DNA of 64,000 bases, taken from the NCBI GenBank assembly GCA_903837345.1, contig CAILUG010000056.1:1-64000 (forward strand). The letters run 5' to 3'. Below are positions 20,624-29,911 of this stretch, one piece after another (positions within the stretch are counted from its first letter, which is position 1; each line of letters starts with the position of its first letter). Position numbers and translations under genes: made by a program. Source of the stretch: an uncultured Gammaproteobacteria bacterium. Its GTDB lineage: Bacteria; Pseudomonadota; Gammaproteobacteria; Pseudomonadales; Pseudohongiellaceae. The notes under the pieces are model-generated. The model was not told the DNA's origin and searched no databases. It worked only from the letters and a program-made list of their open reading frames with translations.

Positions 20624-20655
20624 AAAAAAAGAAGGGAGCCACGCGGGCTCCCTTC
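20624..20655 (-). terminator. Intrinsic terminator of the 24-aa peptide gene
   Basis: On the minus strand a 10-bp stem (GAAGGGAGCC with GGCTCCCTTC, 20655-20646 with 20640-20631) is followed directly by CTTTTTTT. It lies 45 nt after the peptide stop codon. A separate 16-bp perfect palindrome, CAGTTCCATGGAACTG, lies between them at 20665-20680. Confidence 0.92.
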
Positions 20656-20700
20656 AGTGATTGGCAGTTCCATGGAACTGTCAAAAGACAGAGGCTGTTA

Positions 20701-20775
20701 CTACGAAGCGGCTGTCGCTGCTTGCATTGTTACATATCCCGTATCCATCTGGAACTTACACATACCACTAGACAT
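20701..20775 (-). CDS. 24-residue peptide gene with full expression signals
   Basis: The frame runs from ATG at 20775 to TAG at 20701 and encodes 24 residues. It begins MSSGMCKFQMD, has one Cys (position 6), one Tyr (position 14), four Met, and ends in an Ala-rich tail (AATAAS). I do not recognise the family. The length matches PqqA, but the Glu-xxx-Tyr pair that PQQ is made from is absent. What makes it convincing is the context: a TTGACA promoter with 17-nt spacing, a dyad-symmetric operator, a 13-nt perfect anti-16S sequence 7 nt before the ATG, and a strong terminator. No maturation enzyme is adjacent; the nearest same-strand gene is an MFS transporter upstream. It could be a modified-peptide precursor, a small regulatory protein or a leader peptide. 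Confidence 0.68.
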   Translation of the reverse strand: MSSGMCKFQMDTGYVTMQAATAAS

Positions 20776-20776
20776 T

Positions 20777-20789
20777 GGATCACCTCCTT
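20777..20789 (-). promoter_or_regulatory. Full-length Shine-Dalgarno of the peptide gene
   Basis: AAGGAGGTGATCC on the minus strand is the exact complement of the 16S rRNA 3' end over 13 nt. The AGGAGG core is 7 nt from the ATG, the ideal distance. So long a match is rare and implies very strong translation initiation. Confidence 0.9.
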
Positions 20790-20803
20790 TACCTGCGTTG
20801 TTG

Positions 20804-20835
20804 AACATGGGTAAAGGCTAGCCAACGCCCATGTT
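20804..20835 (-). promoter_or_regulatory. 32-bp dyad-symmetric operator over the peptide promoter
   Basis: Outer arms AACATGGG (20804-20811) and CCCATGTT (20828-20835) and a central GGCTAGCC (20816-20823) share one symmetry centre at 20819.5. The dyad covers the -10 hexamer and the likely start site, where a repressor dimer would block transcription. The regulator is unknown. Confidence 0.65.
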
Positions 20836-20843
20836 GCTGTCAA
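20815..20843 (-). promoter_or_regulatory. Sigma-70-type promoter of the peptide gene
   Basis: TTGACA (20843-20838) is a perfect -35 box; 17 nt later TAGCCT (20820-20815) is a partial -10 box (three of six consensus bases). Transcription would begin near 20808, giving a leader of about 33 nt. Confidence 0.65.
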
Positions 20844-20918: not shown

Positions 20919-22169
20919 CTAGCGTCCGGTTTTGTGTTTCAGTGCCAGCAGTGCAACCAGCGTTACCAGACCGGCTCCGCTCAGATAGTAGCCCACTGCT
21001 GCGATACCAAACCTGGCGGCCAGCGCGGTGGCGATATAGGGTGCCAGCGAACCTCCGAGAATGCCTGCAAAATTGAATGCCAGCGAAGCGCCCGTATAAC
21101 GCACCGCAGTAGGGAAAGTATCAGCGAGGGCAGTGCCGAGTGGTCCATAGGTAAGTCCCATGGCTGCCAGGCCCAGCGACAGCATCAGCAACACACTGCC
21201 CTTGTCTCCGGCACTGAACAGCGATCCGAAGGCAAGACCGTACACGATGATTGCCAGCGTGGCAGCAATCAGCATGGGCATGCTGCCAATGCGCCCGGCT
21301 ATCCTGGCAGACAATGGAATGCCAAGTCCGAAAAAAACCACTGCGATGATCTGCAGGATCAGGAAGTCCTGACGCACATAGCCGAGACTTTGCGTGCCAT
21401 AGCTCAGCGTAAACACTGTCATCAGATAGAAGATCGCAAAGGTAGTAACAGCAGCCAGTGTCGCCAGCACCAGCACAGCAGCGTGGTCGCGCATTACGGT
21501 GATGAGAGGCACTTCCACGCGTTCGTTGCGATCCAGCGCTTCCTGGAAGGCTGGCGTTTCAGTGAGTTGCAGCCGCACATAAAGCCCGACAAATACCAGC
21601 AGCAAACTGGCCAGAAACGGAATGCGCCAACCCCAGCCGAGAAACTGCTTGTCATCCAGCATGGTGCCCAGCAACACGAACAAGCCGTTGGCAACAATGA
21701 AACCTATCGGCGCGCCCAACTGCGGGAACATGCCATACCACTCACGTTTTCCTGCAGGAGCATTTTCCGTGGCGAGCAATACTGCTCCACCCCATTCTCC
21801 ACCCAAGCCTATGCCTTGCCCGAACCGGCACAATGCCAAAAGTGCCGGAGCCGCCACACCGATGCTGGCATAGGTCGGCAACAAGCCAATGCACACGGTG
21901 GAAAGTCCCATCGTCAGCAACGCCGCCACCAATGTGGCTTTGCGGCCGATGCGATCACCGAAATGTCCGAACACTGCCGAGCCAACCGGACGCGCCAGGA
22001 AAGCCAGCGCAAAAGTAGCCAGCGACTGCAAGGTGGCAGTGGCGGGATTACTGCCCGGAAAAAACAAGGCAGGAAACACCAGAACCGCAGCCGTGCCGTA
22101 GATGTAGAAGTCGTAAAATTCGATGGTGGTGCCGATAAGGCTGGCAAACAGGATATGACGATGATTCAT
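20919..22169 (-). CDS. MFS transporter, metabolite:H+ symporter type
   Basis: The protein has 416 residues and about 12 membrane helices. The start, IGTTIEFYDFYIYGTAAVLVF, and the loop motif GDRIGRKATL are typical of the ShiA/ProP-like metabolite:H+ symporter family, as is FGQGIGLGGEWGGA. Substrates of relatives include shikimate, proline/betaine, citrate and alpha-ketoglutarate. Its ATG overlaps the stop of the hybrid kinase gene by 4 nt, so kinase and transporter are one operon. That suggests the kinase senses the same ligand the transporter imports. Confidence 0.9.
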   Translation of the reverse strand: MNHRHILFASLIGTTIEFYDFYIYGTAAVLVFPALFFPGSNPATATLQSLATFALAFLARPVGSAVFGHFGDRIGRKATLVAALLTMGLSTVCIGLLPTYASIGVAAPALLALCRFGQGIGLGGEWGGAVLLATENAPAGKREWYGMFPQLGAPIGFIVANGLFVLLGTMLDDKQFLGWGWRIPFLASLLLVFVGLYVRLQLTETPAFQEALDRNERVEVPLITVMRDHAAVLVLATLAAVTTFAIFYLMTVFTLSYGTQSLGYVRQDFLILQIIAVVFFGLGIPLSARIAGRIGSMPMLIAATLAIIVYGLAFGSLFSAGDKGSVLLMLSLGLAAMGLTYGPLGTALADTFPTAVRYTGASLAFNFAGILGGSLAPYIATALAARFGIAAVGYYLSGAGLVTLVALLALKHKTGR

Positions 22170-24844
22170 GAGCTGGAGACAGGTTGTTCCTGGATCAGGT
22201 TTTTGATGCTGGCAAGCAGTGTAGCCGGCGAATAGGGTTTGGCAAGGAAGACAGCACGCTCCTGCATCAGCTCACTCAACGCCATTTCGTCGTTGGCATA
22301 GCCGGAAGTGAACAGCACCGGGGTGCCGGGGAACAGGCTCTGGAATTGTTCACCCAGCTTGATGCCACTGATGTCGCCCAGCACCACGTCCGTGAACAAC
22401 AGATCAATCTTGCCGACATGCTGTCTGACCAGTTGCATGGCTCGCTCGCCGGAATCACATTCGATTACGTTGATGCCCATGCCCTGCAACACCAGACTGG
22501 CAAAACTGCGCACTTCATGCTCGTCTTCCACCACCAGTACCGTGAGTGGTCCGTAGCTTGCCAGGTCTGCATCGGTCAGGGTTTCGGCAACTTCGGCAGC
22601 CTTGGCAGTCGTGATTGGCAAATACAGTGTGAAACTGGTTCCAACATTGTGTTCGGAACGGAAAGTTATAGCGCCATTGCATTGTTTGATGATGCCGTAA
22701 ACAGTAGCCAGACCGAAACCGGTTCCGCGCTCACCCTTGGTGGTGAAGAACGGCTCAAATATCTTGCTTTGCACGTCCATGCCCATTCCGATGCCGTTAT
22801 CGCTCACCTCCAGCCTGATGTAACTGCCTTTCTCCAGATTGAGCTGGCCAGCTTCTTCGGCATTGATCTGACAATGTCCGGTGGCAATCTGGAACTCGCC
22901 TCCGCCAGGCATTGCGTCTCTGGCATTGGCAACCAGGTTCATCAGCACCTGATGCAATTGGCCAGAGTCAGCCATTGTCATTACCGGCTCTCTGCACAAG
23001 AAAGTATGCAGGGTTACTTTTTCGCCCAGCAGGCGGCGGAACATGGACGCCGAATCCGCAATGATCCTGTTCACATCAAGCGGCTCCATTTTCACCATGC
23101 GACGACGGCTGAATGTCAGCAACTGGTTGGTGAGTTCCCCTGCACGCGAACAGGCGTGGTTGATTTCCCTGTAGACGTTGATCTGCTGGTCATCCTGTGC
23201 GGCATTTTGCAGCAACAGTTCGCTGTAGCCGTTTATCACGGTCAACAAATTATTGAAATCGTGGGCAATCGCGCCGGAAAAGCGGCCAATGGATTCCAGC
23301 CTTTGCGAATGCTGCAGTTGCTGCTCCATGAGTTCCTTTTCCTTGGCAATGCGCTTGCGTTCAGTGATATCGACCAGCGTCACCTGCAGGAGCAGGTCAT
23401 TGCCAAAAATGATTGGCACCATATGGGTTTCGGCATCCCATAGCGTGCCGTCGGGGCGTTGCATCAGCCAGTCGGTGACCAAAGGCTTCCTGTCTGATTT
23501 CAGCCGCTCATGCACGGCATCCATACATTCACTGGTTGTACGGCCGTCAGGCTGGACCGGGGCTGAAACGGCCAGTGGAGTCTTGCCAATCAGCTCCTCG
23601 ACTTTCTGGAAGCCCATCAAACGCACGGCAACATTGTTGACATCGACAATTTTCCGGATATCCAGATTGAAGATGACTTCCGCAAACTGTGATTGGGAGA
23701 ATATCTGGTTCCGTACCTGTTCCGACTGTCTCACTTTTCGTTGCAGGAGGTTGGTCCTTGCGTAAGCCAGCATCAGCGCCCCGGCAACCAGGAACATCAG
23801 CAGTGCCAGTGCGCCCCGATGCTGCTGCACAAACTGGCTGACGGTAACCTCGCCGTATCCGGCAAATGGCGCCACCTTCAGTTCTTTCATCAGGTCGGCC
23901 ACCGCATCATATTCAAGCGGTGCAGTAAAACTGCCGACATTGATGGCTTTGGCCTCTTCACTACCGGGCTTTATGGAAAGCAGGGCAATCATCAGGCGTG
24001 AAACCAGGCGTTCGTCATCCATGTCAACCTGGGCAAAAGCGACTTCAGGATAGATGCGAGTGCTGAAATCCACCGGGTACCTGGCGTCGCTGTACGGATT
24101 CGGCAGCTTCAGCACACGCAGTGGCACCGCGCATTCGCCACGGTAATGCTCGAAAAAGCTGGTAGGCAAGACGCCGATTTCGGTGTTGCCGTTGCACACG
24201 CCATTCACTATGTCCTGATAGGAAAAATCGAAGTTCAATGCGGCAAAATCGTTTTCAGTGATGCCGATATCGTGCCATTCACGCAAGGCTGCCAGCCAGC
24301 CGCCCAGGGCCAACCGCGACAATGCTCTTACCTTGTGCCGGCGCGCATCGCCCAAAGTCTGCAAATCAAGGCGGTCTGCGCGCACGAAAACAGAGCTGGC
24401 CAGCCATGGAAACATCCGGCCATTCACCTCCTGGGTTACTGTTGCTATCGGACGCAACTGGTGACGCTGGTAAAGCTGGACGTAGGCTACCGGTGTGACA
24501 AACGCGAATTGCACGGAGCGGACATCGACGGCAGCAATCATGGCGTCGATGGAGTCATAGGTGATTACATTGAAATGGTAACCAGGGATCTGGCTGTCGA
24601 GATAGTTGCTGAATATCGTGGTGTTGCCACTTCCGCTCAATCCGATCTGGCCACCCACAAATCCGATATTGAGGGTTTGCGGGTTGAGGTTTTGCGTTTG
24701 TACACTTTGCGCTTGTACACTTTGCGCTTGTACACTTTGCGCTTGTACACTTTGCGCTTGTATAACAGTGGCTGTCAGGCAACAGACCAATGCAAGCACT
24801 TGCAGGCAGCATTTCAATACAGGATTTTTGTAATCTGCCCGCAT
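22166..24844 (-). CDS. Hybrid histidine kinase with PhnD-like periplasmic sensor
   Basis: The protein has 892 residues from the ATG at 24844. The frame is open further up to a GTG at 24904, but that would overlap the preceding cyclophilin gene. In order it has a signal peptide, a five-residue repeat tract (VQAQS), a PhnD-like substrate-binding domain (LNIGFVGGQIG, NGVCNGNTEIGVLP), a membrane helix (ALLMFLVAGALMLAYAR), a PAS domain, HisKA with His528 (GAIAHDFNNLL), HATPase (NARDAMPGG, GTGFGLATVYG) and a C-terminal receiver with Asp819 (LLFTDVVLG). It should bind a ligand in the periplasm and relay phosphate to a partner. No DNA-binding output is adjacent; the MFS transporter is coupled downstream. 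Confidence 0.9.
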   Translation of the reverse strand: MRADYKNPVLKCCLQVLALVCCLTATVIQAQSVQAQSVQAQSVQAQSVQTQNLNPQTLNIGFVGGQIGLSGSGNTTIFSNYLDSQIPGYHFNVITYDSIDAMIAAVDVRSVQFAFVTPVAYVQLYQRHQLRPIATVTQEVNGRMFPWLASSVFVRADRLDLQTLGDARRHKVRALSRLALGGWLAALREWHDIGITENDFAALNFDFSYQDIVNGVCNGNTEIGVLPTSFFEHYRGECAVPLRVLKLPNPYSDARYPVDFSTRIYPEVAFAQVDMDDERLVSRLMIALLSIKPGSEEAKAINVGSFTAPLEYDAVADLMKELKVAPFAGYGEVTVSQFVQQHRGALALLMFLVAGALMLAYARTNLLQRKVRQSEQVRNQIFSQSQFAEVIFNLDIRKIVDVNNVAVRLMGFQKVEELIGKTPLAVSAPVQPDGRTTSECMDAVHERLKSDRKPLVTDWLMQRPDGTLWDAETHMVPIIFGNDLLLQVTLVDITERKRIAKEKELMEQQLQHSQRLESIGRFSGAIAHDFNNLLTVINGYSELLLQNAAQDDQQINVYREINHACSRAGELTNQLLTFSRRRMVKMEPLDVNRIIADSASMFRRLLGEKVTLHTFLCREPVMTMADSGQLHQVLMNLVANARDAMPGGGEFQIATGHCQINAEEAGQLNLEKGSYIRLEVSDNGIGMGMDVQSKIFEPFFTTKGERGTGFGLATVYGIIKQCNGAITFRSEHNVGTSFTLYLPITTAKAAEVAETLTDADLASYGPLTVLVVEDEHEVRSFASLVLQGMGINVIECDSGERAMQLVRQHVGKIDLLFTDVVLGDISGIKLGEQFQSLFPGTPVLFTSGYANDEMALSELMQERAVFLAKPYSPATLLASIKNLIQEQPVSSS
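24691..24765. repeat. 15-bp coding minisatellite, five units
   Basis: The unit TTTGCGCTTGTACAC occurs three times perfectly and twice with changes. On the minus strand it encodes VQAQS repeats straight after the signal peptide of the hybrid kinase. Its length is a multiple of three, so gain or loss of units keeps the frame. Confidence 0.95.
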
Positions 24845-24884
24845 GCGGATCAATCGCGCTGGTGGAACTTCATGAAATGGATGT

Positions 24885-25589
24885 TCATTCGGCAATTTCA
24901 GCACTGAGGATCATGGTAGGTTTTTGATCGAGCGAATTCAAATAGGTTTCACCATTCTTCCACAACCGGTCCTGGTCCAGTCCCATGCCAGGCTCACCCA
25001 CTTCAGCAAATCTTTCTACAACGTCCATGCCACTGACAACCTTGCCAAAGGTCGTGAAGTTGTACATACGGGCGGCAAGCCGGTTGTTTTCGGTGTAATT
25101 GATAAACACCTGGGTGGCGTTGGTATCCGCACCTGCCTTGGCAAAAGCAAGAGTGCCACGCTCCAGTGCGAACAATGAAAGATCATCCTTGAAATAGCTG
25201 TTTTCCCGGGCCTTGTACGGTTCCCGCCAGTTTATGCCGAACTGGGCCACGAAACCCGGAACCACCCGCGATACCGGTGTGTTGTTGTAGAAGCCGGATT
25301 TTACCAGCTCAAGAAAACGTTGCGCGGCGTTGGGAGCGGCGGCCGGATAGACCTCAATCCTGATTTCACCTGCGGTAGTACGCATGCGAACGGTTTTTTT
25401 GTCCTTGAGCAGTGGCACCTGCGACTCAAGACCCGGCAATGGATTCAGGGCCGGCGCGACAGCAACTGTTGCTGTTGCCGGCGCTTTGGCTTCAGCTGCC
25501 TGCAATGGCTGTGACCCGGCACTGAACAACAGGCCGGCAAGCCACAGGCCAACAAGGAACTGCAAGGTAAGCTTGGTGTGAACGATCAT
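24885..25589 (-). CDS. Exported cyclophilin-type peptidyl-prolyl isomerase
   Basis: The protein has 234 residues from the ATG at 25589, which gives a clean Sec signal peptide (TLQFLVGLWLAGLLFSAGS); a longer frame from 25667 does not. The cyclophilin core includes NAAQRFLELVKSGFYNNTPVSR, VVPGFVAQFG and FTTFGKVVSGMDVVERF. It speeds folding of proteins at proline bonds in the periplasm. An Ala-rich linker separates signal and domain. The stop lies about 40 nt before the kinase start, so it may lead the cyclophilin - kinase - MFS operon. Confidence 0.9.
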   Translation of the reverse strand: MIVHTKLTLQFLVGLWLAGLLFSAGSQPLQAAEAKAPATATVAVAPALNPLPGLESQVPLLKDKKTVRMRTTAGEIRIEVYPAAAPNAAQRFLELVKSGFYNNTPVSRVVPGFVAQFGINWREPYKARENSYFKDDLSLFALERGTLAFAKAGADTNATQVFINYTENNRLAARMYNFTTFGKVVSGMDVVERFAEVGEPGMGLDQDRLWKNGETYLNSLDQKPTMILSAEIAE

Positions 25590-29826: not shown

Positions 29827-29911
29827 TGGTGCGGACGGAGAGACTTGAACTCTCATACCGTGAGGTGCTGGAACCTAAATCCAGTGCGTCTGCCAGTTTC
29901 GCCACGTCCGC
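29827..29911 (-). tRNA. tRNA-Leu (anticodon UAG)
   Basis: The 85-nt sequence folds as a class II tRNA. The acceptor stem is GCGGACG with CGTCCGC, the discriminator base is A and the 3' CCA is encoded. The anticodon stem CTGGA/TCCAG closes a seven-base loop, TTTAGGT, with anticodon TAG. A long variable arm (CACCTCACGGTATG region) and a TPsiC loop GTTCAAG complete it. It reads CUA and other CUN leucine codons. Confidence 0.97.

Follow-up and report, generated by a model that had tools for sequence, protein, structure and literature searches.

The closest described counterparts of the gene analysed here are the rreB and rreR small mRNAs, with which it shares a free-standing short transcript, a Shine-Dalgarno sequence (SD) extended over the 16S 3' end and a tiny ORF; it differs from them in being gammaproteobacterial, in starting with ATG and in having 24 codons with an MSS core. 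The rreB RNA is said to bind the 30S subunit strongly and to co-sediment with it, to be weakly translated and, reportedly, to be stabilised once its start codon is removed. To our knowledge, no clamp between the ORF and the 3' UTR figures in the rreB/rreR abstract, which is said to name alphaproteobacterial orders only (reportedly Hahn et al. 2017, RNA Biol 14:1353). This article on rreB/rreR appears in the reference list of PMC7298713.

A further counterpart is the Caulobacter sRNA CC2171 (Rfam RF01867), which is catalogued as non-coding although an open GTG frame can be made out by eye in its consensus. In the consensus structure, bases past the start codon are paired with those that precede the terminator, an arrangement shared by helix P1 described below. 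Long-range 5'-3' pairing also occurs in the type I toxin mRNAs hok and aapA1, where a small ORF is gated by such pairing in a way that may resemble our gene; here, however, the SD lies outside the clamp and the family peptides are not uniformly hydrophobic.

Probable kinship with CC2171, rreB and rreR

We analysed a 64,000-nt stretch of DNA from an uncultured bacterium of the Pseudohongiellaceae, hereafter the window. When 501 bases were searched, the CC2171 model matched over its full length (1-159 of 159) with 32 bits and E 4.2e-5, or E 6.5e-5 when the whole genome was searched, a score below the gathering score of 75. At the gathering threshold, Rfam returned only a tRNA in the window (29830-29911, minus strand). 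Five further Rfam matches, which lie at the 3' end or on the opposite strand and have E values from 0.3 to 8, were taken as chance. The CC2171 model also matched 13 of 15 further loci, four of them above the cut-off.

Genes of 14 codons with a GTG start (VSYLKRCHLAGIAR in L205, and variants) were found in 7-8 Mb genomes, and those of L205, L206 and L219 matched the CC2171 model at full length with 42-52 bits. We take these genes to be rreB of Bradyrhizobium. Upstream of the gene in L205, L206 and L219, at a distance of about 150-165 nt, there is a tRNA gene on the other strand. The 18-codon genes L220, L218 and L208 matched the model at full length as well, and the 18-codon genes with a GTG start (L184-L187, L220) presumably correspond to rreR. 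We further assume that a 14-aa protein of B. japonicum and an 18-aa protein of Dinoroseobacter shibae are of the same kind as the window gene. Table 1 of PMC7217052 gives both small proteins as unstructured alone, in agreement with the rreB/rreR link. On these sequence comparisons, we place the window gene as a distant gammaproteobacterial member of the extended-SD small mRNA kind (rreB / CC2171). Genes under separate names, the CC2171 sRNA and the rreB/rreR small mRNAs, would then be tied to gammaproteobacterial genes for which we found no description.

Layout of the gene and spread of the family

On the minus strand, positions 20843 to 20624 hold a -35 box, an extended SD, 24 codons and a terminator. 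An earlier note on this DNA had listed these elements, and all of them were located on that strand. P1 and P2 below are helices between the ORF and the 3' UTR, and "own counted" means that the window's own genome is included.

20838..20843, minus strand: -35 box TTGACA, exact in 17 of 20 family loci (own counted)
20815..20820, minus strand: -10-like TAGCCT, weak, with a 17-nt spacer from the -35 box
20804..20835, minus strand: dyad AACATGGG-16-CCCATGTT, in 1 of 20 family loci
20800..20805, minus strand: TTCAAC box near the probable transcript start; TTCARC in 19 of 20 family loci (own counted)
20776..20790, minus strand: extended SD AAAGGAGGTGATCCA, ending directly before the ATG
20701..20775, minus strand: ORF of 24 codons, ATG...TAG, MSSGMCKFQMDTGYVTMQAATAAS
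20764..20769, minus strand: P1 5' strand AGUGGU, codons 3-4, pairing with 20656-20661
20750..20756, minus strand: P2 5' strand AGUUCCA, codons 7-9, 7 bp in the window gene (MFE)
20665..20680, minus strand: 3' UTR CAGTTCCATGGAACTG, potential hairpin that may compete with P2
20666..20672, minus strand: P2 3' strand UGGAACU, pairing with the P2 5' strand
20656..20661, minus strand: P1 3' strand AUCACU, directly before the terminator (RNAalifold, alignment test, MFE)
20624..20655, minus strand: intrinsic terminator, 10-bp stem and T7 (sequence and terminator scan)

Judged by its sequence, the gene is short and free-standing, with its own promoter, of which the -10 is weak, and its own terminator. 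A consensus scan of the gene region returned no promoter because of this weak -10; the transcript probably starts near the TTCAAC box. The terminator was found by a scan in which 0.6 per shuffled region are expected, so that alone it is weak evidence. That the elements occur together beyond chance, as the earlier note had argued, is borne out by a 301-nt DNA search, which matched 24 of 57 genomes (own counted), and the complete small gene claimed there agrees with an open frame under selection and the full set of elements. The dyad, read there as an operator, fared otherwise: the one family locus of 20 that holds AACATGGG and CCCATGTT is the window's own, so there is no conserved operator, and the dyad was rejected in that role as private to its genome.

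The SD is complementary to the 16S 3' tail well past the core and right before the start codon, as compared via the 16S of L232 and L235, and it agrees with 16S antisense stretches in these two other genomes of the class. It is kept across genera in the 301-nt search, where it was not presupposed; most later family members were fetched with a pattern that includes it. TAAAGGAGGTGATCC has one exact site in the genome and a second site with one mismatch, which we take, from its sequence, to fall within an era-like gene. TGGATCACCTCCTT, searched to locate the genome's own 16S 3' end, has no copy in the assembly besides the complement within the gene itself, and its longer form has none; that end was not found in the assembly.

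The 301-nt search matched 9 of the 10 other genomes of the genus. A 34-nt core with at most three mismatches was found in 21 of 137 genomes of the family, and a 22-nt core with at most two in 25 of 390 genomes of the order. A pattern scan of named genomes gave at least 116 stretches in Gammaproteobacteria and Alphaproteobacteria; the listed matches include, from the former, a record labelled Pseudohongiella, LSUCC0112, LSUCC0096 and Litorivicinus and, from the latter, Agrobacterium, Rhizobium, Phyllobacterium, Pelagibacterium, Hyphomicrobium and SAR116. On translation, 115 of 116 listed stretches contained an ORF of 16 to 33 codons, and in the remaining one the ORF runs off the end of the fetched sequence. 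An Agrobacterium copy was matched by nine plasmid records with no feature listed there (one record examined has two features in total). A viral origin was rejected after an exact search of viral_contigs with one pattern gave 0 matches.

A covariance model, R1, built from 57 members, matched 97 of 398 genomes of the phylum at E <= 0.001, a number that is overstated because some inspected matches are false: among 20 places inspected, 15 look like members, three are something else (the coding genes L213 and L223 and the 16S antisense stretch L224) and two are doubtful (L215, L222). The majority of the phylum matches fall outside the window's class. Within the class, R1 matched 12 of 369 genomes; eight matches look real, including L229 with 11 codons only, and the discarded ones are 16S antisense (L232, L235) or large genes (L233, L234). 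Short R1 matches (27-32 nt) need inspection before acceptance, and those in the rreB-like genomes G542, G772 and G705 span 32 nt only. From the named loci, the family appears scattered in Gammaproteobacteria and present in several alphaproteobacterial lineages. There is usually one copy per genome. G531, of another class, has two distinct members, L208 and L209 (MSHGSAKGSVQFVGETRR and MSHCHALNAASGTTVIASAGWLRA); the two matching places in G137 may belong to a single copy that a contig end interrupts. The copy L003, in genome G007 of the window's genus, reads 67 codons with no terminator found and is perhaps degraded.

Reading frame, peptide and pairing with the 3' UTR

For comparison within the family, 113 loci were extracted; 25 more, some of them duplicates, had no terminator found. 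L015, L138 and L165 were dropped for doubtful terminators, 58 of 110 loci were kept at under 80% identity, and all of these except L014 formed an alignment of 57 members. The frame test used 78 non-redundant members of 128, skipping L047 and short or N-holding stretches. Loci L058-L173 (116 in all) were fetched by the exact pattern GGAGGTGATCYNRTGTCTAGTG, a choice that fixes the SD, MSS and the GUG of P1 in these loci and leaves the frame, P2 and the 3' strands free.

The earlier note had named conservation of the frame in relatives as a check on the ORF. Beyond codon 5, 77 of the 78 members kept frame 0 open over a minimum of 12 codons, against 42 for each of the other frames; openness over 14 codons was likewise found in 77, compared with a mean of 41.4 and a maximum of 55 in shuffled sequences. 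The ORF usually has 14-33 codons, and exactly 26 in 30 of the 78 members; L118 (16 codons) and L003 are length outliers. Among 33 close-relative pairs chosen for equal ORF length, changes from codon 12 onward fell evenly on codon positions 1, 2 and 3 (55/55/56). The pN/pS ratio was 0.78 (0.64-0.96) from codon 6 onward, with 0.93 and 0.86 in the off-frames, and 0.74 (0.58-0.98) from codon 12 onward, with 0.88 and 0.78. As these intervals lie just below 1, weak purifying selection on the peptide is possible. The MSS(E/D/G) start can be explained as already dictated at the RNA level by the SD and P1, and is largely set by the search pattern. Pfam/NCBIfam gave no family for six family peptides. 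The motif CARCCN, which encodes Q-P, occurred 26 times in frame 0 (including three beyond the stop codon) compared with 7 and 4 times in the other frames, and 13 cases lie in frame six codons before the stop; this recurrence could be a peptide-level signal.

By eye, the ORFs of L062, L103, L149 and L151 carry CARCCYTCG-like stretches past the P2 5' strand and near the stop, which give Q-P or similar in frame and whose copies could compete for one 3' strand. A gammaproteobacterial subgroup (L211, L212, L228) has 18-codon ORFs with a common AMS(E/V)(G/A)R-like C-terminus, a likeness that may be RNA-level because the stretch lies partly in a predicted duplex.

In most members, codons 3-5 (P1) and about 6-11 (P2) can pair with the part of the 3' UTR that directly precedes the terminator, including members in which these segments are unrelated in sequence. 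P1 was first proposed, unprompted, by RNAalifold. In the 57 aligned members, 96.1% of its cells are paired, compared with 87.7 +/- 1.3 in column shuffles (0 of 500 as high) and at most 48.8% in slid registers; an early loose test gave 6.24 for own partners against 5.73 +/- 0.14 (maximum 6.17) for permuted ones. Five pairs are supported, three of them with a 5' side fixed by the search pattern. Covariation lies mostly in the informative pair 39-252 (G-C 24, U-A 18, U-G 3, A-U 2, G-U 1 and unpaired 9 of the 57 members); pairs 40-251 and 41-250 do no better than shuffles, and the count of P1 pairs with two-sided change is not above shuffles, being reached by 136 of 500. The window's P1 consists of five family pairs and one A-U pair, which two other members share.

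The sequence of P2 varies widely. Its duplex energy averaged -18.5 kcal/mol with own partners and -11.0 +/- 0.42 with swapped ones (0 of 10,000 permutations as low), and a second scoring gave 17.9 against 12.2 +/- 0.38; the permutations for P1 and P2 do not keep relatedness. The difference held both in the 18 members from the window's family and order (own -17.4, swapped -13.0 +/- 0.70) and in the remaining 39 (own -19.1, swapped -11.3 +/- 0.54). It was also present in 20 further members, including rreB-like, 18-codon and CC2171-like genes, that were fetched by R1 instead of the MSS pattern: duplexes of codons 3-13 with the 3' end gave -26.5 with own and -18.6 +/- 0.95 with swapped partners. 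For this set, 24 of 29 chosen loci were parsed, and L206, L183, L217 and L221 were dropped because their extracted segments overlapped.

The window RNA has a predicted fold of -63.2 (z -3.18, 0 of 200 shuffles), and its MFE structure contains both helices. Single-sequence MFEs contain P1 in 35 and P2 in 43 of the 57 members. The fold of Agrobacterium L090 has neither; this RNA may use a local 3' hairpin instead. The P2 5' strand recurs as a second copy in the 3' UTR of the window's relatives (GTTCC...GGAAC), so that a local hairpin could replace P2 during ribosome occupancy. The SD is predicted to be unpaired with a probability of 0.38 and the AUG with one of 0.50, and free 30S docking is therefore not obvious. 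Internal copies of the 16S anti-SD were rejected as a general lock, being found in 3 of 57 members with 3.9 expected from shuffles. Such copies seen by eye are GGATCACCTCC in the 3' UTR of L207 (minus strand) and UCACCUC within the rreB-like ORF of L205, L206 and L219 (plus strand).

These comparisons support the family, the open frame, the near-neutral peptide, P1 and P2. Selection seems to keep the open frame and the RNA clamp, and the peptide itself seems to drift almost freely.

A proposed ribosome-gated RNA and its alternatives

We propose, with a probability of about one half, that the gene encodes a ribosome-gated small RNA in which being translated counts for more than the peptide that results. 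The transcript would be a free-standing small mRNA of about 180 nt, of the extended-SD kind, whose SD would dock the 30S subunit on the free 16S rRNA 3' end. P1 and P2 would clamp codons 3-5 and about 6-11 to the 3' UTR, and since the clamp begins 6 nt past the A of the start codon, a docked 30S would have to open it to start. The initiating ribosome would then cross the short frame, open the clamp and free the 3' strand, which in the window's own relatives could form the local 3' UTR hairpin. The clamped and translated states would differ in RNA stability or activity, a presumed regulatory output. The ORF would thus be selected for being translated, its residues mostly free. The behaviour reported for rreB, that is, 30S binding, weak translation and stabilisation without a start codon, fits this reading. 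The strong translation suggested in the earlier note is doubtful, given structure from 6 nt past the A of the ATG and the weak translation reported for rreB; the tight control suggested there is plausible via RNA structure and not via the dyad, which occurs at 1 of 20 loci.

A small functional protein acting in trans, with an MSS(E/D/G) start and Q-P near its end, would account for the kept frame and length (30 of 78 ORFs with exactly 26 codons), the in-frame Q-P of the 13 cases and a pN/pS below 1. Yet its start is explicable by the SD and P1 and largely pattern-fixed, changes show no codon-position bias at a pN/pS of 0.78, and the six peptides match no family; we consider such a protein unlikely. 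The unstructured state of the isolated B. japonicum and D. shibae proteins, as given in the table of PMC7217052, also speaks against it. Alternatively, the long SD could act as a decoy that sequesters free 30S subunits or locks them into unproductive complexes and so tunes global translation, with the ORF and the clamp slowing clearance. Complementarity to the 16S tail past the usual SD, kept across genera, is in line with this idea, as is the reported co-sedimentation of weakly translated rreB RNA with 30S, but a gene usually present in one copy per genome would need very high abundance and the open frame would be left unexplained; we rate a decoy as distinctly unlikely. The frame is equally unexplained if the RNA is a base-pairing sRNA on other mRNAs, with the ORF secondary or dual in function. 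In favour of this, CC2171, the family with the best match, is listed as an sRNA and the gene is free-standing with a terminator; in the 57-member alignment, however, no block common between genera was seen by eye outside the SD, P1 and the terminator, and we judge this reading improbable.

The neighbourhood bears on the remaining alternatives. Any one neighbour gene recurs in at most 7 of 78 loci (26 of which are under 4 kb), and the largest recurring group, at these 7, has mixed positions and is of a generic kind. A short ORF with alternative pairings would suit an attenuator-type leader of a neighbouring gene, but the gene has its own terminator, the gene downstream in the window is on the other strand and no neighbour is widely shared; this reading is very improbable, and an operon leader is unlikely for the last of these reasons. 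The sensor leader of the earlier note finds no conserved downstream target, the largest neighbour group being 7 of 78. Its precursor peptide is not upheld either, with near-neutral residues from codon 6, no Pfam/NCBIfam family and no recurring neighbour above 7 of 78. PqqA and other RiPP precursors were rejected, as the residues change near-neutrally, the six peptides match no family and neighbours at the loci recur in 7 of 78 at most.

Returning to the ribosome-gated RNA, a broader and more tentative version, which we hold possible but would not bet on, is that one Alpha- and Gammaproteobacteria RNA family has passage of the ribosome through a near-arbitrary short frame as its selected feature. 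A translation-gated switch, with a full-length 16S docking site and a start codon at the clamp edge, would read out initiation capacity, and the peptide would be a by-product. The family gains a shared architecture supported by covariation. If this reading is true, a frame kept open while its residues are hardly kept would show plainly that translation itself can be what is selected, and would warn that a conserved small ORF need not encode a functional peptide. The searchable literature, which leaves out most subscription journals, gave no account of gammaproteobacterial members or of the ORF-3' UTR clamp, and the window gene is absent from the accessible portions of PMC10117765, PMC5082802, PMC4842269, PMC3927594 and PMC6337395. 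Within that literature, the P1/P2 clamp and the open frame with a near-neutral peptide look new.

By eye, the window also holds a sensor-kinase-like ORF of 912 aa (22166-24904, minus strand), which carries a short tandem repeat (QSVQA) close to the N-terminus; it adjoins the transporter-like gene upstream of the small gene.
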